From the NCBI RefSeq assembly GCF_005222225.1, contig NZ_CP036536.1:1822001-1886000 (forward strand): a DNA stretch of 64,000 nt. The letters are read 5' to 3'. Made by a program: the position numbers and the translations under genes. The notes beneath the pieces are model-generated. The model had not been told where the DNA came from. It was given only the letters and a program-made list of their open reading frames with translations, and made no database searches. Of this stretch, positions 33,474-49,131 are shown one piece after another (positions within the stretch are counted from its first letter, which is position 1; each line of letters starts with the position of its first letter). This stretch comes from Salinimonas lutimaris (GTDB lineage: Bacteria; Pseudomonadota; Gammaproteobacteria; Enterobacterales; Alteromonadaceae).

Positions 33474-35027
33474 CTAGCGGTTGCCAATCCAGTCTACCCG
33501 GTACAGATCACGTCGACGGTCCAGATAATTTCGTACTGAGCCTTCATTTTGCAGCCGGGTCAGTTTATCCAGATCCAAATCAACAATCAGGGTCATTTCA
33601 GTATTAGGCGTTGTTTCCGACACTATAGCATCGTGCGGGAAAGCAAAGTCTGACGGAGAGAATACCGCAGTCTGGCCATACTGAATATCGACGTTATCGA
33701 CTTTTGGCAGGTTACCCACACTGCCGGCAATCGCCACATAGCATTCATTTTCAATGGCCCGGGCCTGGGCGCAACGGCGCACTCGCAGGTAACCATTTTT
33801 AGTATCGGTCCAAAATGGTACAAACAGAATCTGCATTTCCTGCTCAGACAAAACCCTTGCCAGTTCAGGAAACTCTACGTCATAACAAATCAGCACGCCA
33901 ATTTTGCCAAAGTCTGTATCAAAGGTTTTCAGGCTATCGCCACCTTTCATAATCCAGTCTTTCTTTTCATGGGGAGTAGGGTGCAGTTTGTACTGACTTT
34001 CAATCGTGCCGTCGCGTTTGCACACATAAGCCACATTGTATAACTCCTCATCTTCAACCACCGGCATGGAGCCGGCAATGATTGTGATGTTATACGACAC
34101 CGCCAGATGTGACACTGCACTGAGTATTTCATCAGTGTAGGTGGCAAGGTGATAAATCGCATCTATGGAAGAGTCACTTGGGCTCAGGCCCATCAGTGGT
34201 GCATTGAAAAACTCCGGAAACAGCGCCACGTCGCAACCGTAATCAGACAACGCATCAACAAAATATTCAACCTGCTGAAGCAGCTCCTCGACATTATTGA
34301 AATAGCGCATTTGCCACTGTATACAGCCAATTCGCGCGCTGGATTTTTTGCCGCCTATTAATGACGGATTGCCCGGCTCATAATAAATGTTATGCCACTG
34401 CAACAGGGTCGCATAGCCACTGGAGTCTTTGTCCTCGGGCAAGTACGCGGTCATGACCTGCTTAACTTCAAATCCGTTGGAAATCTGAAAGGTCAGGATA
34501 GGATCGTAAATGTCTTTACTTTTTACCTGTTCAATATACTCATACGGCGACATTTCACTGGAGTAGTTGCGGTAATTCGGAATTCGTCCACCGGCCATGA
34601 TGGATTTCAGATTAAGATTACGACACAACTCTTTGCGCGCTTCATAAAGTCGCCGGCCCAGACGCAGGCCCCGGTAGCTCGGGCACACAATGACTTCCAC
34701 ACCGTATAGCACATCACCGTTGGGATCATGGGTGGTAAGATAGGCATCGCCGGTAATTTCATCGTAACTGTGTTTGTCACCAAACTGTTCATAATCCACG
34801 ATGACCGAGATAGCAAAGGCGACAACCTTGCCTTTGTCTTCAATACAAATCTGTCCTTCAGGGAACGTGTTCACCTGAGCTTTAAAGTTTTTATAGGGCC
34901 AGGCGCCGCCAACATTGACGTAAACCTTGTCCATCAGTTCTTTGATATCACCGTAGTCATCTAAACGCAGGTTGCGCAATTCCAGATGATGCTCTGTACC
35001 TTCTACAGTGGTTTGATCCTGACTCAT
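33474..35027 (-). CDS. Bifunctional GNAT acetyltransferase / carbon-nitrogen hydrolase
   Basis: 517 residues. The N-terminal ~210 residues are a GNAT domain with the acetyl-CoA pyrophosphate loop region RGLRLGRRLYEARKEL. The C-terminal ~290 residues are a nitrilase-superfamily amidase with the expected Glu-Lys-Cys triad: Glu272 (LFPEFFN), Lys in KLHPTPHEKKDW, and Cys381 (LICYDVEFPE). The fusion is a known but poorly characterised bacterial family. The hydrolase half would cleave a C-N bond in an amide; related enzymes act on N-carbamoylputrescine or omega-amides. Proximity to an Orn/Lys/Arg-type decarboxylase suggests amine catabolism, which is inference. Cytosolic; no signal peptide. Confidence 0.9.
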   Translation of the reverse strand: MSQDQTTVEGTEHHLELRNLRLDDYGDIKELMDKVYVNVGGAWPYKNFKAQVNTFPEGQICIEDKGKVVAFAISVIVDYEQFGDKHSYDEITGDAYLTTHDPNGDVLYGVEVIVCPSYRGLRLGRRLYEARKELCRNLNLKSIMAGGRIPNYRNYSSEMSPYEYIEQVKSKDIYDPILTFQISNGFEVKQVMTAYLPEDKDSSGYATLLQWHNIYYEPGNPSLIGGKKSSARIGCIQWQMRYFNNVEELLQQVEYFVDALSDYGCDVALFPEFFNAPLMGLSPSDSSIDAIYHLATYTDEILSAVSHLAVSYNITIIAGSMPVVEDEELYNVAYVCKRDGTIESQYKLHPTPHEKKDWIMKGGDSLKTFDTDFGKIGVLICYDVEFPELARVLSEQEMQILFVPFWTDTKNGYLRVRRCAQARAIENECYVAIAGSVGNLPKVDNVDIQYGQTAVFSPSDFAFPHDAIVSETTPNTEMTLIVDLDLDKLTRLQNEGSVRNYLDRRRDLYRVDWIGNR

Positions 35028-35929: not shown

Positions 35930-38900
35930 TTAATCCATCAATGTCAGTGCTTCGGCGTACTTAAGCTGACCGATTAGCCCCACAATCTGCGCGGTTTTTT
36001 GCTCTCCGTACTGGCGGGTAAGGGCATCCCGCCATGCCTCGGTGTCACTTTCACGCAGGTAACTGTGGGCAATCAGGCGACTGCGCAGCATATCTAAATC
36101 GTCACTGGCATGTTCCCCTGCCTGCTCATAGATAGCAGGCAGGCAGGCCAGACACTGGTTGACAGATTTCAGAACCATTGTAAGTTCACTAAGCAAATCA
36201 CTGTGAGATGGAATAATACCATCCTGTTCTGAGCGTTCGGCCTCGGCTGCCAGAATGTGCAGGCGGGTGGCACCAATGGCTTTGGCCAGACCCTTAAGCG
36301 TGTGAACAAAGCGCAGGCGCTCGGTGTCTGCCATGCCCAAAGTCTGCTGATTGCGGGCGTAGTCCTGATACTCTCTGCTGAAGTTGCTCAGCAACTGTTG
36401 ATACGCGCTGACACTACCGCCGAGCCGGGCCAGAGCAGGCTGGGTTTCAAAACCCGGCAGACTGATGGCCAGTTTTTGTTTAATTTCTGTTTGCTGCTCA
36501 ATATATTCAGGGTCCGGCCGGCTGGATGAATAGTCGTGCAGAGCTTTACTGCTTAAAAATTTGCCAAGTGTTTGCTGCAATTGCGCCCGGTCAACTGGCT
36601 TAGGAATATGGGCATCCATCCCAGATTCCATGACCCGTTGTTTATCCTGAGCGGTTACTGCGGCAGACATGGCAATGATGGGAACGCTATCGCCACCAGG
36701 CAGCCCACGGATGGCAGCCGATGCTGTGTAGCCGTCCATCACCGGCATCTGTAAATCCATTAATACCAAATCAAAAACTTCAGCCTTGAATACGTCCATT
36801 GCTTCTCGTCCGTTTTCAGCAATATGGACGATAAAGCCCAGCTTACTGAGTAGTTCCGAGGCAACGTACTGATTGGTTTTGTTGTCTTCTACAACCAGTG
36901 CATGACAGGAAGGGAAATACAACGTCTGCTGATGCGACTGTGAGCTGATAGTCTGGGCTTTACGTGCTTTAAGCTCCTGAATACTGGTTTCAATGTCGCA
37001 CGGTAAAAAGGGGGCAAATACCCATAATGAGGGAACATTGAGAATGACCTCACTGCCACTGCTGTCAAAGCCAGCCCGGGATCCGATAAACAACACGCCA
37101 ACACGAATATCCTCGCTGTGCTGTGTTGCCAGTAAATGTCTAAGCAGCTGGCTGCGCTGGCCGTTATCCAGACCGGTAATGTCAATAATAAGAAGATCGC
37201 AGGCCGGGGGGCGGGCGTCCATTAGCTCGTCCATCGACACCGTAGTCACCGAACGGGCCTTACTGCTGGTGAGAATCTCATTCAGGCAGAATGAATTTTG
37301 GCTGTTTTCACTGCTTATCAGGCAGGTCAGTCCATCGGCACTGTCATCAGGTTTAGCGTGACGGTCAGGATCCAGTGGTATCGACAGTGTAAAACAGCTG
37401 CCTTTTCCAGGTTCACTGGTAGCGGTCAGCGCTCCTTCCAGCAACTGGGCCAGCTTGCGGCATATCGACAGACCTAGCCCGGTGCCACCAAAGCGGCGAC
37501 TGATTGAGCTGTCTGCCTGCGAGAAGGCCGAAAACAGATTGTTTAACTGCGCCTCTTCGATGCCTATGCCTGTATCACTAACCGCAAACTCGTATAGCGC
37601 AATAGAGTCGTCCTGCTGCCGGGATAAACTGACCGTAACGGTGATTTCACCGGTTTCGGTAAACTTAAGTGCATTGCCTAGCAGGTTAGACAGTATCTGC
37701 CGAATACGTACACTGTCGCCAACCACATACCTGGGGACCTGATGAAGAACCTGGCAGGATAATGTCATGCCTTTTTGCTCGGCTGTGGCGCTGAATAAAG
37801 CCAGAATATCTGACAGGACCCGGAACAAGTCAAAGGGTTCTCTGGCAATAGTAAGCTTGCCGGCTTCCAGTTTTGAGTAGTCCAGCACGTCGTTGAGAAT
37901 TTGCAGCAGTGAACGGGAGGAGGCATGTACTTTACTTAAGTACTCACGTTGTTTTTTCCCCATTTCCATGTCCAGCAACATTTCGGTGAGCGCCAGCACA
38001 GCATTCATCGGCGTGCGGATTTCATGACTCATGTTGGCCAGAAATTCGGATTTGGTACGGCTTGCCTGTTCCGCCTCATCCCGGGTTTTCATCAGATTTT
38101 CCTGCATACTTCGCAATGGTGTTATATCCAGAAAACTGCCCATATAATCGGTGACCCGGCCATCTTTGTCCCGTTCAAAAATCGCATCCTGGGCCATGAT
38201 CCATATCCACCGGTGAGAGGCATGGCGAATTCGGTACTGTACGTGAAAGCTGCCGGTCTGACTGGCTTCCTGTCTCAGTAAATGACGGATATGCTTAACC
38301 AGACGCGGCCGGTCTTCCGGATGAATCAACGTCAACAGACCTTTGAAGCCCAGACTGTGGATATAAGCAGGGGAATAGCCACTGATGCTGGTGCATCGCT
38401 TGTTGATGTAAAGGGCACGTTGTTGTTTAAGATTGAACACATAAACGCCGGCAATCGAATAATTAATCGTGCGCTCCAGCAGCTTCTGCTGCTTGTGTAG
38501 TGCCTGCTTGGCCTGCTCGCGTTCGCTGACATCATTAAACATGACAATAAGCTGACCGACCGTACTCTGAAATACCGTGGTATCAAACCAGTGTGTGGTC
38601 TGGGAATCACCGTGCCACTTTACAATTTGCTGCCAGGGCTTACCGCCTTGTTCCGCTATATCGATACACCGGGGTATGGCCAGCCCGCCAGGGAAAAAAG
38701 GAAAGGCCTGATACGGTTCATCTGAGTCGGTGTGACTGATGAGTTTGTCAGCTGCCGGATTAGTACCGGTCAGGCAAAGTTGCCGGTTATCAAGGTTAAA
38801 GATATGCACCCCGGCCGGCATCGCATCAATAATATTTTGGGTGATCTGTTCGCTGCGGGCTGACTGCTGTTCAGCGGCTACTCTGGCCGAAATATCCTGT

Positions 38901-39670
38901 ACCGACATCACTGCTCCGGGAATCGCTTCATCGGGCTGATTACGCAGCACAATTTCAACGGGTACAGAGCTGCCTGTTGCACTGTGGCTGTTAAGGCGCA
39001 GCGGGCCCAGGCTCGCGCCAGGCTTACTGTCGGCTAAAAAGGAGGCAACATCGGGCAGGGCAACGTCCTGGTCTGCAAATAACTGATGTACCGGGTATTG
39101 TCTGAGCGTATCTGCGTCATACCCGAAAATGCGGCAGGCCGCCGGATTGCTCAGCTCGATACAGGCGCTTTTATCAAGCACCAACACCCCGATATGGATG
39201 CTATTGGTGGACTCTCGTAAAATGGCTTCCTGTTTCCTCAGGCTGTCCAGATGCAGGCGCTTGAGCTTTTCGTCGGCGGCTTTTTGCAGGGCGATTCTTA
39301 CACTTTCTGTGCTGGGTAATTGCAGAGCGACCGGAATCGTTCTATATACTACATATGCAGTAATGCATGAAACGATGGCCGTGAATAATTTGGCAAGTCC
39401 GTGGATACCATAGGCGCCGTGCCAGATAACAAAAATACTGATGACATGGGTAATACCGCACAACAGTATAAACAGGGAAAAAAGGGTGAAAATCCCTTTA
39501 AACTTTAAGTCAGTTCTGCGCTTAACAAAGTAGAACAACGCAAAAGGAATTGAAAAGTAGGCCAGCGCGATAAAAATGTCTGAAATAACATTGAGCCAGA
39601 GAATTTCCGGTTTCCACAGGTAGCAGTGCCCGTGGGGCATAAAGTCGGTTCGAAGCAGAGACGCTAACAT
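35930..39670 (-). CDS. Hybrid histidine kinase with ethylene-receptor-like sensor domain
   Basis: 1,246 residues. The first ~115 form a three-helix membrane domain closely resembling plant ETR1: SDIFIALAYFSIP, then FILLCGITH, then KLFTAIVSCITA. Asp31, Tyr38, Ile41, Pro42, Ile68, Cys71 and His75 match ETR1 Asp25, Tyr32, Ile35, Pro36, Ile62, Cys65 and His69 with a constant offset of six. Cys65 and His69 hold the copper that binds ethylene. Next come a coiled linker, three PAS domains (about 155-530), HisKA with His549 (SHEIRTPMN), HATPase (DTGIGIE, GGTGLGLS), a receiver with Asp972 (LMDLQMP) and Hpt with His1123 (HTLKG). A divergent REC-GGDEF gene is the likely output partner. Confidence 0.93.
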   Translation of the reverse strand: MLASLLRTDFMPHGHCYLWKPEILWLNVISDIFIALAYFSIPFALFYFVKRRTDLKFKGIFTLFSLFILLCGITHVISIFVIWHGAYGIHGLAKLFTAIVSCITAYVVYRTIPVALQLPSTESVRIALQKAADEKLKRLHLDSLRKQEAILRESTNSIHIGVLVLDKSACIELSNPAACRIFGYDADTLRQYPVHQLFADQDVALPDVASFLADSKPGASLGPLRLNSHSATGSSVPVEIVLRNQPDEAIPGAVMSVQDISARVAAEQQSARSEQITQNIIDAMPAGVHIFNLDNRQLCLTGTNPAADKLISHTDSDEPYQAFPFFPGGLAIPRCIDIAEQGGKPWQQIVKWHGDSQTTHWFDTTVFQSTVGQLIVMFNDVSEREQAKQALHKQQKLLERTINYSIAGVYVFNLKQQRALYINKRCTSISGYSPAYIHSLGFKGLLTLIHPEDRPRLVKHIRHLLRQEASQTGSFHVQYRIRHASHRWIWIMAQDAIFERDKDGRVTDYMGSFLDITPLRSMQENLMKTRDEAEQASRTKSEFLANMSHEIRTPMNAVLALTEMLLDMEMGKKQREYLSKVHASSRSLLQILNDVLDYSKLEAGKLTIAREPFDLFRVLSDILALFSATAEQKGMTLSCQVLHQVPRYVVGDSVRIRQILSNLLGNALKFTETGEITVTVSLSRQQDDSIALYEFAVSDTGIGIEEAQLNNLFSAFSQADSSISRRFGGTGLGLSICRKLAQLLEGALTATSEPGKGSCFTLSIPLDPDRHAKPDDSADGLTCLISSENSQNSFCLNEILTSSKARSVTTVSMDELMDARPPACDLLIIDITGLDNGQRSQLLRHLLATQHSEDIRVGVLFIGSRAGFDSSGSEVILNVPSLWVFAPFLPCDIETSIQELKARKAQTISSQSHQQTLYFPSCHALVVEDNKTNQYVASELLSKLGFIVHIAENGREAMDVFKAEVFDLVLMDLQMPVMDGYTASAAIRGLPGGDSVPIIAMSAAVTAQDKQRVMESGMDAHIPKPVDRAQLQQTLGKFLSSKALHDYSSSRPDPEYIEQQTEIKQKLAISLPGFETQPALARLGGSVSAYQQLLSNFSREYQDYARNQQTLGMADTERLRFVHTLKGLAKAIGATRLHILAAEAERSEQDGIIPSHSDLLSELTMVLKSVNQCLACLPAIYEQAGEHASDDLDMLRSRLIAHSYLRESDTEAWRDALTRQYGEQKTAQIVGLIGQLKYAEALTLMD

Positions 39671-39767: not shown

Positions 39768-40718
39768 ATGTTGTCGCACCGAGCTAAAGTGTTAATTATT
39801 GATGATGATGTGACCACAATCAGAATGATGGCTGACTCACTGTCGCCAGACTACGAAGTTATTGTGGCCACCGCTGCTGAAGAGGGGTTACGTCAAGCCC
39901 GGACTGCACAACCCGATCTGATTTTACTGGACGTAATCATGCCGCAGATAAACGGCTATGATGTGTGCCGGCGCCTCAAAGCAGACGACCTGACCCTGAA
40001 AATTCCGGTTATTTTTGTGACTGCGCTGGATGCGGTTGACCAGCAAACCAAGGGCTTTGAATTAGGAGCGGTGGACTACATTACCAAGCCCATTGAGGTC
40101 GCGTTACTTCACGCCCGGGTACGAAGCCATACCCGCCTGTATCAGCAAACACTGCAACTGGAGTCTCTGGCTGCAACCGATCCGCTGACCGGACTGGCCA
40201 ACCGGCGTAAATTTGATGAGTCGATTAATCATGAAATTGAGCGTAGCCACCGTTTGCAAACCACCTTATCCCTGTTAATTGTTGATATTGACGACTTTAA
40301 GGCCTACAACGACCACTATGGCCATGGCAAGGGTGATGATTGTCTGGTGTCGGTGGCCCGGCTGTTAAAAAAAGCTGCGTTGCGCGGTACTGATTTGGTC
40401 AGCCGGCTGGGCGGGGAGGAGTTTGGTATCATTCTGACTGATACTGACCGAAATGGCGCACAAGTGATTGCCCGGCATATTCTGGACCTGTTTGCCGAAG
40501 CCGCTTACCCGCACATCAAAGCCTCTATGCACCCATACCTGACCGTCAGTATGGGGTTTGTATCGATTGATTTTGCCAATCTTACCGACAACCTCCCTGA
40601 CGAACGGGCCTTGATCGATGCGGCAGATAAAGCCCTGTACCGGGCAAAAAATGGCGGGCGCAACCGGTTTTGTTATGAACCCTGGCCGGGCGACACTGAC
40701 ATCGAAAAATGGGCCTGA
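39768..40718 (+). CDS. Response regulator with GGDEF domain, predicted diguanylate cyclase
   Basis: 316 residues. The N-terminal receiver has phospho-acceptor Asp55 (LLDVIMPQ) and conserved Lys in YITKP. The GGDEF domain has an intact active-site GGEEF at residues 215-219 and an intact inhibitory I-site RxxD at 206-209 (RGTD, five residues before GGEEF). It should make c-di-GMP from GTP and be product-inhibited. An AGGA ribosome site precedes the ATG. The gene starts 97 bp from the divergent ethylene-receptor-like hybrid kinase, so phosphotransfer from that kinase's Hpt domain to Asp55 is a reasonable prediction. Confidence 0.93.
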   Translation: MLSHRAKVLIIDDDVTTIRMMADSLSPDYEVIVATAAEEGLRQARTAQPDLILLDVIMPQINGYDVCRRLKADDLTLKIPVIFVTALDAVDQQTKGFELGAVDYITKPIEVALLHARVRSHTRLYQQTLQLESLAATDPLTGLANRRKFDESINHEIERSHRLQTTLSLLIVDIDDFKAYNDHYGHGKGDDCLVSVARLLKKAALRGTDLVSRLGGEEFGIILTDTDRNGAQVIARHILDLFAEAAYPHIKASMHPYLTVSMGFVSIDFANLTDNLPDERALIDAADKALYRAKNGGRNRFCYEPWPGDTDIEKWA

Positions 40719-40876: not shown

Positions 40877-42547
40877 ATGGATAAATTTCCTGCGCCGGTA
40901 TCACCGGAAGAACTCAAGGTACTGATTATTGACAATCAGGGGCTGGTTCATGATCAAATCATCAGTGCACTGCGTGACAGTGGCGTTAAGCACATTAGCA
41001 GCGCATTTAACGCTTTTCATGCGCTGCGTCTGTGTAAGCAGCACACCTTTGATATAGTCATGCTCGCATTTAACGTCAGCAACGACAAAGACGGCTTTCA
41101 TCTGTTTGAAGAGCTCCGCCAGCACCAGTTTATTACTGACCGTACATCGGTGATTTTTCTGAGCGCCGAAACCAGTCATGAACTGGTTAACTGCATTGTA
41201 GAGCTGCAGCCGGACGACTTCTGGGTGAAGCCGCTGGACAGCCGCCGGATTGCTGCCCGCCTGGACTATTTGCTGACGGTGCGTAAAAAGCTGAATAAAC
41301 TCCTGCATTGTCTTTATCAGCGCGATTATGCCGCAGCGATGTATCATGCCCAGCGTCAACTTAACGATGACACCATCAGTGAGCTTCATCCCAGATTGCG
41401 TCGGATTGTCGGCGAATGTCTGCTTCACCTGCGAGACTACCCGGAAGCCGAGCGTTATTTTACCGGGCTGCTGAGTAGCCTGAATCATGCCTGGGTACAT
41501 ATTAATCTGGTCAAATCGCTGTTAAGACAAAATAAGCAGGAAGAAGCCCAGTTACGGATTGAGGATTTGCTGGAGCGCCGCGACACCCGCTTTTTGACGT
41601 TGGATCTGTTGGCTCAGTTTCATCTGGAGCATGAACAGTACGCCGAAGCCTATGACAAAATAAAACAGGCCAGTTCACTGGCACCACGAAATATCGAGCG
41701 ACACAAGCGGTTGTGGGATCTGGCGCGGCTCAACCATGATAAAACCGGCCAGCTTATCGCGGTGCAGAATATGGCCCGGTATGCCAAAAACAGTATTCAC
41801 GATTCGCCGGAGCTACAGATGAATGTGATTCGCTCTACACTGGATTTGGCGACCAGTGTCAGTCAGACAGAAGCAGAAAAGCTGTTACAGCGGGCAGAAC
41901 TGGATCTGGTCAGGCTGAGCGAGACAAAAGGTGTGGCTGGTCAGCTCGATGAACAGGTTCGCATTACCCGGGCTCGCATCCTGTGTCTGCAAAGCCGTAA
42001 AAAAGAAGCCGAAGTGATCATGAAAGAAGAAAAGCCTGAGATCAGCAGTGCGTCGATGGAAGACAATCTGGATAAAATGAAGGCGTTTCATGAACTGGGG
42101 ATGAAAGAACATTGTCTGGCGGTGCTCGATAAACTTCGTCAGCAGATTGAGGGTGACACATTTTCCTCGCAGGTGGTGGATGAATATCTGAAGCAGGAGG
42201 AAATCGAGCGTCGTGAAATTCAGTTTACCACCAAAGAACTTAAAGAAATGGCGGCTGTCAACTACCGGGAAAACCGAATGCTGCCGGCTTACAACAATTT
42301 GCGTCAGGCACTGCGGTTATCCCCGGATAACCGGCAAATAGCCCTGAGCCTGCTAAAAGTGATGGCGCAGCTTATCAGAAAACAGCCGCTTAACCATGAA
42401 CAGGAGCAAACCCTGGACAGCGCCGCCAGACTGTTGCTGCAAAGTGACTTGCCTGCTGCGCAGCGCGAAAAGCGCAATCATTATTTTGCGCTTTTGCAAA
42501 TTGATGTCGCAGCGCTTGGCGAGGCGCCGGATTTACAGGCCGGCTAA
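40877..42547 (+). CDS. TPR protein with degenerate receiver domain
   Basis: 556 residues. Residues ~13-135 have the receiver fold, but the phospho-acceptor is missing: the beta-3 motif reads FDIVMLAFNVSND with Ala64 where Asp is normal, and the acidic pair near residue 19 is Asp-Asn. The signalling Lys in FWVKPLD is kept. The rest, ~140-540, is all-helical TPR-like (YPEAERYFTGLL and MLPAYNNLRQALRLSPDNRQ segments), a protein-interaction scaffold. A pseudo-receiver cannot be switched by phosphorylation, so it may bind another partner constitutively. It follows the GGDEF regulator by 158 bp on the same strand and may belong to the same signalling group. Confidence 0.85.
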   Translation: MDKFPAPVSPEELKVLIIDNQGLVHDQIISALRDSGVKHISSAFNAFHALRLCKQHTFDIVMLAFNVSNDKDGFHLFEELRQHQFITDRTSVIFLSAETSHELVNCIVELQPDDFWVKPLDSRRIAARLDYLLTVRKKLNKLLHCLYQRDYAAAMYHAQRQLNDDTISELHPRLRRIVGECLLHLRDYPEAERYFTGLLSSLNHAWVHINLVKSLLRQNKQEEAQLRIEDLLERRDTRFLTLDLLAQFHLEHEQYAEAYDKIKQASSLAPRNIERHKRLWDLARLNHDKTGQLIAVQNMARYAKNSIHDSPELQMNVIRSTLDLATSVSQTEAEKLLQRAELDLVRLSETKGVAGQLDEQVRITRARILCLQSRKKEAEVIMKEEKPEISSASMEDNLDKMKAFHELGMKEHCLAVLDKLRQQIEGDTFSSQVVDEYLKQEEIERREIQFTTKELKEMAAVNYRENRMLPAYNNLRQALRLSPDNRQIALSLLKVMAQLIRKQPLNHEQEQTLDSAARLLLQSDLPAAQREKRNHYFALLQIDVAALGEAPDLQAG

Positions 42548-46560: not shown

Positions 46561-47016
46561 CGTGGACAGTCACCCATATCGTGGACAGGCACTCATATCG
46601 TGGACAGTCACTCATATCGTGGACAGACACCCATATCGTGGACAGGCACCTATATCGTGGACAGGCTCCCATATCGTGGACAGGCACTCATATCGTGGAC
46701 AGTCACTCATATCGTGGACAGGCACCCATATCGTGGACAGGCACCCATATCGCGGACAGGCACCCATCTCGTGGACAGTCACTCATATCGTGGACAGTCA
46801 TCCATATCGTAGATAGGTACCCATATCGTAGACAGGCACCCATATCGCGGACAGGCACCCATATCGCGCACAGACACCCATATCGCGCACAGACACCCAT
46901 ATCGTGGACAGTCATCCATATCGTGGACAGTCACCCATATCGTAGACAGGCACCCATATCGTGGACAGGCACCCATATCGTGGACAGTCACTCATATCGT
47001 AGACAGATACCCAGGT
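46561..47016 (+). repeat. 19-bp tandem repeat array A (24 units)
   Basis: Twenty-three full units and a terminal variant unit of CGTGGACAGKCACYCATAT, every one exactly 19 bp with no spacer and no indel. Variation is confined to a few positions: TGG/TAG/CGG/CGC at bases 3-5, GTC/GGC/GAC around bases 9-11, and C/T near base 14. The last unit ends in AGATACCCAGGT. Because three units are 57 bp, the array is open in all frames and yields false protein frames. No CRISPR-type spacers exist. It sits between the ahpF terminator and the upstream region of tetR. Confidence 0.95.
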
Positions 47017-47151: not shown

Positions 47152-47715
47152 ATGCCAAGAGATAAAAGTTTATCGCGCCAGAAAATCATCGACGCTGCTG
47201 TCGATATCGCTGTTAATCAGGGGCCACGCACGCTCACGCTGGATAATGTTGCTGTGAAATGCAACATGAGCAAGGGCGGCGTGATGCATCATTTCAAATC
47301 CAAGGAAGCCTTACTGGAAGCCCTGCTGAGTAATCTCATGGACACGTTTAAATGTTATGAAACGGAAATCTGTGAAGAAAATCAGCAGCAGTTGCCGGTG
47401 AGTCGGTTATTGCGTACGCGTCAGCGTATTCATGAGCAGGTCGATCTGGATTACGCCAGATTATTTCTGGTCGCGGCCAACGAAAACCCTGAGCTGCTGG
47501 GAATCTTTTCCCAGCACATGAGCGAATTTGTGCAGGAATTGCGTGAGCAGCCAGAGAATTACTGGGACAGCATTATCCTGTGGCTGGCAATAGATGGTCT
47601 AAGCTTTCAGGAGTTAATGTCTGTCAGCCCTTTTACCGAAACCGAACGCAACACGATTCGAGAAAAACTGGTCAGCATGGCTGAATCTTTAGGAGAAAAC
47701 ACCGGTGAAAAATAA
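47152..47715 (+). CDS. TetR-family efflux regulator, copy A
   Basis: 187 residues, identical in protein sequence to copy B at 48568. The N-terminal DNA-binding domain (residues ~8-55) includes LTLDNVAVKCNMSKGGVMHH, a standard TetR helix-turn-helix. The C-terminal ligand domain is of the AcrR-like/TetR_C type. It is the first gene of the copy A fragment of the efflux operon and overlaps the start of the truncated adaptor gene by 11 bp. A palindromic operator lies just upstream. Being full length and unchanged, this copy should still make a functional repressor, doubling regulator dose relative to the pump. Confidence 0.93.
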   Translation: MPRDKSLSRQKIIDAAVDIAVNQGPRTLTLDNVAVKCNMSKGGVMHHFKSKEALLEALLSNLMDTFKCYETEICEENQQQLPVSRLLRTRQRIHEQVDLDYARLFLVAANENPELLGIFSQHMSEFVQELREQPENYWDSIILWLAIDGLSFQELMSVSPFTETERNTIREKLVSMAESLGENTGEK

Positions 47716-48190
47716 CCTGTTCCGCGTTGCAGTACTGGCACTATCCAGTCTGATCTTCGTTATCGGCTGCTCTGATGATAAACAGGAGCAAACCAGCAAA
47801 GCCCCGCCTATGGTCCAAGTGTATCAGGTTGGCAAGGACACCCAGCCCGGTGTACGCAGATTTGTTGCTAAAGTCGATGCACTCAGTACAGTAGACATGG
47901 CATTTCAGGTATCGGGCCGTATCAATAAGCTAGTGGACCGCCAGGGCGTTGTGATTCCTCAGGGCGACTTGCTGGCTGCGCTTGAGCCTCAGGATTATCA
48001 GCTTGCGCTGCGTCAGGCGCAATCCAGTTTGCGCAAGGCTGAGTCCGACTTTGAGCGTGGCAAAGAGCTGAAAAAAGAAAACTACATCAGCGAGTCTGAT
48101 TTTGATTCACTGGAAACGGCCTATGAAAATGCTGAAATCACTCATATCGTGGACAGTCACCCATATCGTGGACAGGCACTCATATCGTAG
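47705..48190 (+). pseudogene. Truncated efflux adaptor (MFP) fused to repeat-encoded tail
   Basis: The first 144-145 codons match the intact adaptor gene at 49121: signal peptide with lipobox VIGC, then the biotinyl-lipoyl-like and coiled-coil start. After codon ~145 (position 48138) the frame enters the 19-bp array and adds about 16 residues of repeat translation (HIVDSHPYRGQALIS) before a stop. The beta-barrel and membrane-proximal domains needed to contact the RND pump are absent, so it cannot act as a normal adaptor. All three differences from the intact copy in this stretch are synonymous. Confidence 0.9.
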
Positions 48191-48432
48191 ACAGGCACCC
48201 ATACCGCGGACAGTCACTCATATCGTGGACAGTCACTCATATCGTAGACAGGCACCCATATCGTGGACAGTCACTCATATCGTAGACAGGCACCCATATC
48301 GTGGACAGGCACCTATATCGTGGACAGTCATCCATATCGTAGACAGGCACACATATCGTGGACAGTCACCCATATCGTAGACAGGCACCCATATCGTGGA
48401 CAGGCACTCATATCGTAGACAGATACCCAGGT
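48139..48432 (+). repeat. 19-bp tandem repeat array B (partial + 14 units + terminal unit)
   Basis: Starts with a partial unit CACTCATAT at 48139, then 14 exact 19-bp units from 48148 and the same terminal variant unit as array A (CGTAGACAGATACCCAGGT, 48414-48432). The order of unit variants does not match the equivalent end of array A, although the flanking DNA is nearly identical. The array therefore changes much faster than its surroundings. Confidence 0.95.
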
Positions 48433-48567: not shown

Positions 48568-49131
48568 ATGCCAAGAGATAAAAGTTTATCGCGCCAGAAA
48601 ATCATCGACGCTGCTGTCGATATCGCTGTTAATCAGGGGCCACGCACGCTCACGCTGGATAATGTTGCTGTGAAATGCAACATGAGCAAGGGCGGCGTGA
48701 TGCATCATTTCAAATCCAAGGAAGCCTTACTGGAAGCCCTGCTGAGTAATCTCATGGACACGTTTAAATGTTACGAAACGGAAATCTGTGAAGAAAATCA
48801 GCAGCAGTTGCCGGTGAGTCGGTTATTGCGTACGCGTCAGCGTATTCATGAGCAGGTCGATCTGGATTACGCCAGATTATTTCTGGTCGCGGCCAACGAA
48901 AACCCTGAGCTGCTGGGAATCTTTTCCCAGCACATGAGCGAATTTGTGCAGGAATTGCGTGAGCAGCCAGAGAATTACTGGGACAGCATTATCCTTTGGC
49001 TGGCAATAGATGGTCTAAGCTTTCAGGAGTTAATGTCTGTCAGCCCTTTTACCGAAACCGAACGCAACACGATTCGAGAAAAACTCGTCAGCATGGCTGA
49101 ATCTTTAGGAGAAAACACCGGTGAAAAATAA
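48568..49131 (+). CDS. TetR-family efflux regulator, copy B
   Basis: 187 residues, same protein as copy A (three synonymous base differences: TAT/TAC, CTG/CTT, CTG/CTC). Domain structure as in copy A: N-terminal helix-turn-helix, C-terminal ligand-binding helices. This copy heads the intact tetR-adaptor-RND operon and overlaps the adaptor start by 11 bp, so the regulator is the first cistron of the operon it is expected to repress. The inducing ligand is probably a pump substrate, by family analogy. Confidence 0.95.
   Translation: MPRDKSLSRQKIIDAAVDIAVNQGPRTLTLDNVAVKCNMSKGGVMHHFKSKEALLEALLSNLMDTFKCYETEICEENQQQLPVSRLLRTRQRIHEQVDLDYARLFLVAANENPELLGIFSQHMSEFVQELREQPENYWDSIILWLAIDGLSFQELMSVSPFTETERNTIREKLVSMAESLGENTGEK

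Follow-up and report, generated by a model that had tools for sequence, protein, structure and literature searches.

The stretch of DNA analysed here (the window) comprises 64,000 nucleotides of the Salinimonas lutimaris genome (positions 1,822,001 to 1,886,000 of contig NZ_CP036536.1, the single contig of a 4.12 Mb genome). At 35930-39670 on the minus strand it carries a gene, starting with ATG, for a hybrid sensor histidine kinase of 1,246 amino acids (aa), whose residues 1-115 are encoded by 39326-39670. A first-pass annotation had read this gene as a kinase with an N-terminal copper/ethylene site like that of the plant receptor ETR1, followed by three PAS domains, HisKA, HATPase, REC and Hpt. 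The open reading frame proved correct and its interpretation is supported overall, with the order ETR1_N, PAS, a PAS-like stretch, PAS, HisKA, HATPase, REC and Hpt. Pfam matches are clear for HisKA (residues 540-604), HATPase (651-767) and REC (925-1034), and together with the phospho-accepting residues these make the protein a hybrid histidine kinase; the relay residues H549 (HisKA), D972 (REC) and H1123 (Hpt) are all in place. Two other parts of the architecture held less well. PAS matches were found in two places (about 156-261 and 420-511), and the supposed middle PAS (270-400) had no Pfam match in the window kinase and merely resembles the equivalent stretch of some relatives. The Hpt carries its histidine motif, HTLKG, at H1123 but scores 22.3 bits, below the Pfam cut-off of 24.6, which three of four related hybrid kinases pass (L033, 26.3; L143, 31.4; L144, 45.7 bits) and the fourth misses (L146, 23.3). 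Divergent from the kinase, at 39768-40718 on the plus strand, lies a gene for a response regulator-GGDEF diguanylate cyclase (RR-GGDEF; REC Asp55, an RGTD I-site and a GGEEF motif), the predicted partner of the kinase.

The N-terminal domain is a member of the ETR1 family. The Pfam model ETR1_N (PF25487) matches residues 23-118 (39317-39604, minus strand) at E = 3.6e-35, scoring 120.6 bits where the cut-off is 27, in line with the earlier view that the first ~115 residues are ETR1-like, and the window kinase is the one match at E <= 0.1 in the genome. All seven site residues (Asp31, Tyr38, Ile41, Pro42, Ile68, Cys71 and His75) are in place at an exact offset of +6 from residues 25, 32, 35, 36, 62, 65 and 69 of Arabidopsis ETR1. 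This agrees with the annotation, and among 200,000 shuffles of residues 1-119, taking for each the best-matching of 68 offsets, 3 had six matches and none had seven. The Pfam match is the stronger test of family. The sensor is 39% identical to ETR1 over 98 aligned columns. The seven residues are reported to be required in ETR1 for ethylene binding (PMC11819568).

An AlphaFold2 model of the sensor, built from 65 of 113 prepared alignment rows (the window and related loci, with near copies, fragments and degenerate domains removed), predicts the three-helix arrangement that the annotation had proposed to look for, with long helices at 21-51, 58-84 and 87-117 and a further one at 121-139 (mean predicted local distance difference test score, pLDDT, 91.4; predicted template modelling score 0.77); residues 1-20 are less sure (mean pLDDT 67-69). 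The predicted Cu(I) ligands Cys71 and His75 (39446-39460, minus strand) both lie on the second helix, one turn apart (i, i+4), and therefore share one face. The annotation had them facing each other, an arrangement that the model replaces with two residues on the same face of one helix. On the first helix, in the segment from Asp31 to Pro42 (39545-39580, minus strand), Asp31, Tyr38 and Pro42 would fall within 40 degrees of each other if the helix were ideal, with Ile41 about 80 degrees from Asp31. The loop between helices 1 and 2 (KRRTDLKFK) fits the cytoplasmic side by its sequence. No solved structure related to the sensor was found by sequence search, or by Foldseek at E <= 0.001.

Across a first collection of 109 relatives (80 by pattern search, 29 by Pfam profile), Tyr38, Ile68, Cys71 and His75 are each present in 109/109, Asp31 in 107, Ile41 in 105 and Pro42 in 103. 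Asp31 is replaced by Asn in L080, L217, L251, L253, L254 and others, and by Glu in L029, L126 and L156; in a plant receptor, Asn at the affinity-setting Asp is reported to lower ethylene affinity about 100-fold (PMC13012798). At E <= 0.001, ETR1_N matched in 38 of 146 near relatives and 28 of 398 genomes phylum-wide (window genome counted in both), and in 18 of 296, 13 of 297 and 13 of 188 genomes sampled around L043, L052 and L038, respectively (sample centres counted); a further 18 plasmid records have a match, six of which were retrieved. Matches at G103, G088 and G049 (contig edge) and a 48-aa frame of G060 were left out, L135 and L255 have no match to the domain profile, and L210, L228 and L243 were excluded as repeats of pattern-search loci. 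The residue sets likewise omit L001, L134, L147-L155 and L157 (repeats of loci already in), and L005 and L032 are one gene.

N-terminal to the first helix, outside the Pfam model and predicted to be extracytoplasmic, is the segment PHGHCYLW (residues 12-19; 39614-39637, minus strand), where plant ETR1 has CNCIEPQW. In set 1 (67 domains gathered by profile, synteny or tblastn), PHGxCxxW occurs in all 56 domains with at least six of the seven site residues and in 0/11 of the rest. Set 2 (45 further domains, from samples around the genomes of L043, L052 and L038) has the motif in just 21 of the 32 domains with at least six site residues and also in 4 of the 13 others, and we rejected the idea that it is a hallmark of these domains and forms a second copper site through His13 and Cys16. 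Since it is missing from 11/32 site-bearing domains of set 2 and present in others that lack the site, His13 is no universal ligand and the motif is not strictly tied to the site. Judged by these alignments, Cys16 (56/56 in set 1; 31/32 site-bearing and 6/13 other domains in set 2) and Trp19 (29/32 and 9/13 in set 2) are the more widely shared residues of the outer segment; the ligands Cys71 and His75 are kept in 56/56 and 32/32. The presence of PHGHC in 80/80 pattern-search loci is no test, as DFMPHGHC was one of the search patterns. In a dimer model of plant ETR1, Cys4 and Cys6 are reported to form disulfides between chains (PMC6586836), and because of this a disulfide would be a plainer reading of Cys16 than a copper site. 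The string PHGHC was not found in the main texts of the searched literature, figures being outside that search. As a separate observation, eight site-bearing domains of set 2 have (P/A)RWxCxxW in place of PHGxCxxW (L211, L213, L217, L219, L248, L250, L252 and L256) and represent a second type of bacterial ethylene-binding domain; the full set of seven site residues is present in six of them, and six of the seven in the other two.

Bacterial domains of this kind are already in print, as the annotation had indicated; many proteobacteria are reported to have them, with a wide range of outputs (PMC7700396), and the window sensor thus belongs to a known kind. An ungapped alignment of 120 aa with AzoEtr1 of Azospirillum brasilense gives 44% identity. 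A plasmid record of A. brasilense Sp7 encodes a 525-aa protein with D35, C75, H79 and K98, in agreement with the published AzoEtr1 numbering and length (PMC11819568). AzoEtr1 and the window protein share the seven site residues, Lys98 (Lys94 in the window), the PHGxC stretch and a histidine kinase output, but AzoEtr1 has one PAS, a kinase without REC or Hpt and a stand-alone receiver gene downstream, whereas the window protein, at 1,246 aa, includes both of these domains and is encoded next to a divergent RR-GGDEF gene. Residues 1-130 of AzoEtr1 are reported to bind ethylene saturably in yeast, and A. brasilense to contain less cyclic di-GMP (c-di-GMP) with ethylene, by a route described as unknown to the authors (PMC11819568). 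SynEtr1/UirS of Synechocystis PCC 6803, likened here by description, is also a bacterial kinase with an ethylene-binding N-terminus, as predicted for the window protein; on the side of differences, it is reported to respond to ultraviolet-A (UV-A) as well as ethylene and to signal to slr1213 and the small RNA CsiR1 (PMC6682694, PMC5812497). Arabidopsis ETR1 shares the three-helix copper site (predicted here) and the seven residues, but has a GAF domain instead of PAS and is located in the endoplasmic reticulum. Among the matches listed in our literature search, no publication dealt with an ethylene receptor in Alteromonas.

The likely output of the window kinase, which the annotation had not named, is suggested by its gene neighbourhood. 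With the carbon-nitrogen hydrolase gene that adjoins the kinase as an anchor, we placed the locus in 57 of 59 Alteromonas genomes, examining about 11-12 kb at nearly all loci (17 kb in the window genome, G000; 5.3, 8.5 and 9.1 kb at L176, L200 and L201, respectively). The kinase occupies this locus in 11/57 genomes, and a search with its C-terminal 466 residues returned the same 11 genomes at E <= 1e-40 (27 candidates scored per genome). An RR-GGDEF gene is present at all 11 loci with the kinase and at 3 of the 46 without it (G030, G047 and G006, the last at 41% identity; Fisher p = 2e-9, from counts that are not independent and not corrected for relatedness). GGDEF proteins that lie beyond AhpF at L194, L198 and L206, outside the kinase slot of loci without the kinase, are not among these three. 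Kinase and RR-GGDEF thus largely come and go as a pair, and this genomic tie is an established feature of the locus. The two genes also adjoin in Paraglaciecola, Planctobacterium, Catenovulum and G060; in Planctobacterium and Catenovulum the RR-GGDEF gene is downstream of the kinase on the same strand. This neighbourhood suggests that the kinase controls c-di-GMP.

A link between the same sensor and c-di-GMP is also apparent in one-piece proteins. ETR1_N matched in 25 of the 59 Alteromonas genomes. Eight of these matches are kinases of the window kind (4 intact, 4 degenerate), two are 897-aa kinases, one is a fragment, and the other 14 are frames of 317-351 aa. Each of these 14 short frames has a GGDEF domain with GGEEF, confirmed by Pfam in the G007 protein (L154, 317 aa), the one short frame scanned. 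Such ethylene-binding domain (EBD)-GGDEF proteins, found in other Alteromonas, Rheinheimera and Arsukibacterium, share the sensor and the apparent c-di-GMP link with the window kinase but are direct fusions of about 320-350 aa with no kinase or relay. Fusions of sensor and GGDEF make up 20 of the 80 pattern-search loci (16 short, and 4 longer ones from Methylobacter and Methylococcaceae). A GGDEF gene lies within 1.5 kb at 10 of the 60 non-fusion loci; two of those 10, and none of the other loci, carry another at a greater distance (168 and 379 kb searched). As all 10 belong to gammaproteobacteria or Methylophilus, the trait marks some lineages and not the family, and most pattern-search kinases of other groups have no GGDEF gene nearby. 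No publication on a sensor-GGDEF fusion was found among the matches listed, which covered titles, abstract starts and passages, and we do not claim its absence from the literature. Separately, two Bowmanella proteins with this sensor (L036 and L037) lie beside long GGDEF proteins; L036 is a HisKA_2/HWE-type kinase by Pfam.

At the fixed Alteromonas locus the predicted copper site has been lost in most kinases. It is intact in 4 of the 11 (G000, the window; G003; G054; G057) and lost in 7, with the kinase core kept. Cys is replaced by Phe in G013 and by Leu in G010, and His by Gln in G004 and G021; in G025, G031 and G053 Cys is replaced, His has become Arg and the outer segment is absent (the site alignment is remote for G004, G021, G025, G031 and G053). 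Kinase-core identity to the window is 60-65% across all ten orthologues. Sensor and core identities are 79/65, 78/60 and 72/62% for the three other intact orthologues and 48/63, 28/64 and 32/63% for the three degenerate ones that still align; four further degenerate orthologues give no sensor match at threshold and core identities of 61-63%. Where the site is intact, the sensor is by this measure more strongly constrained than the kinase. In a tree of the kinase region with four intact outgroups, the starred branches require a minimum of two changes of state; finer placing is unsure because the branches are long.

The remaining neighbours are not tied to the kinase. A REC-TPR protein (40877-42547, plus strand) is conserved at 9/11 loci with the kinase and 45/46 without, and a convergent 2-oxoglutarate-Fe(II) oxygenase (PF13640; 34986-35927, plus strand) at 10/11 and 42/46. 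We considered the oxygenase as an ethylene-forming enzyme and rejected this, given its PF13640 assignment, a sole and weak NCBIfam match (20.4 bits, cut-off 240) and its indifference to the kinase. A GNAT acetyltransferase-carbon-nitrogen hydrolase fusion (33474-35027) is far better conserved than most neighbours: its counterparts in the 56 other Alteromonas genomes with this gene are 89-95% identical. Elsewhere in the window, two arrays of a 19-base tandem repeat (46561-47006, 23.5 copies; 48139-48429, 14.9 copies) adjoin two TetR-type genes with identical Pfam scores (47152-47715 and 48568-49131), which are followed by frames of 161 and 365 aa, the latter HlyD-like; the region looks like a tandem duplication.

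Taken together, we consider it probable that the window kinase senses ethylene through copper and signals by a phosphorelay to c-di-GMP, and this is our best reading of the locus. The first ~118 residues would form an ethylene-binding domain of the ETR1/SynEtr1/AzoEtr1 kind, with three membrane helices and the N-terminus outside, in which Cys71 and His75 would hold one Cu(I), with Asp31 positioning it, and this copper would bind ethylene. The signal would pass through the PAS-type modules to HisKA, then from His549 to Asp972 to His1123, and finally reach Asp55 of RR-GGDEF, the product of the divergent gene, which would set c-di-GMP and hence attachment. Under the inverse-agonist model proposed for the ethylene receptor (PMC11819568), ethylene would turn the kinase off and c-di-GMP would fall. 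Ethylene and copper as ligands, the relay, the direction of the response, the specificity of the partner and any effect on biofilm are the parts that we infer. Several observations weigh against this reading. RR-GGDEF is kept without the kinase in three genomes, the co-occurrence counts are not independent events, and the Hpt of the window kinase is below the Pfam cut-off. The genome has 44 HisKA and 45 GGDEF matches, which makes cross-talk possible, and the adjoining REC-TPR protein is another possible target. Furthermore, 7/11 orthologues keep the kinase with a broken site, so the kinase seems to have an ethylene-independent use, and other signals may enter through the PAS modules.

These points bear on four other explanations. 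The sensor might bind ethylene, as in our preferred reading, with a main output to REC-TPR or other regulators instead of c-di-GMP. REC-TPR does adjoin, the genome is rich in kinases and cyclases, and an Hpt domain can allow a hybrid kinase to act on distant regulators; we nevertheless find this somewhat unlikely, as REC-TPR is indifferent to the presence of the kinase (9/11 versus 45/46) while RR-GGDEF tracks it (11/11 versus 3/46). It is unlikely, too, that the domain binds Cu(I) for a natural signal other than ethylene, such as copper itself, another small olefin, carbon monoxide or redox state, an idea that partly overlaps ours and is favoured by the conservation of Cys16 almost as strictly as the ligands (56/56 and 31/32). 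Against it, the residues that ethylene binding requires besides Cys and His (Asp31, Tyr38, Ile41, Pro42 and Ile68) are also kept, and the relative AzoEtr1 is reported to bind ethylene (PMC11819568). The loss of the site from seven orthologues that keep the kinase, with at least two changes of state on the tree, would be expected if the sensor were a relic, a mere membrane anchor and dimeriser for a kinase that responds through its PAS modules. Yet the window sensor keeps every site residue and, compared with the three other intact orthologues, is better conserved (72-79%) than the kinase core (60-65%), which makes a relic improbable. Finally, a light or UV receptor in which ethylene is secondary has a precedent in SynEtr1/UirS, reported to answer both ethylene and UV-A (PMC6682694, PMC5812497), but is scarcely credible here, as UirS is described as a cyanobacteriochrome (PMC5812497) and there is no GAF among the Pfam matches of the window kinase.

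A copper/ethylene sensor that drives a phosphorelay to c-di-GMP remains our preferred account. On sequence grounds, the assignment of this marine heterotroph's kinase to a known receptor family is well supported, and its link to c-di-GMP is plausible. More tentatively, we propose as possible, short of probable, that copper-bound ethylene, or a different dissolved alkene, acts as a c-di-GMP switch in marine Alteromonadales. The switch would come in two architectures around one sensor, a phosphorelay kinase that works with a separate RR-diguanylate cyclase and a single protein that joins sensor and diguanylate cyclase, with the copper site repeatedly lost at one fixed locus. Those repeated losses supply natural site-dead controls, and the Alteromonas loci would allow a direct test of receptor control over c-di-GMP, as the one-piece sensor-cyclase needs no relay. 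Ethylene binding with a physiological effect is reported for few microbes, namely Synechocystis, a mycorrhizal fungus and Azospirillum (PMC11819568). If our proposal is true, it would offer a candidate for the missing link from ethylene to the fall in c-di-GMP seen in Azospirillum. Algae make ethylene. Sunlight on dissolved organic matter is reported to make it as well (PMC6682694). The system would then tie a gas from sunlit organic matter and algae to the attachment of marine heterotrophs.
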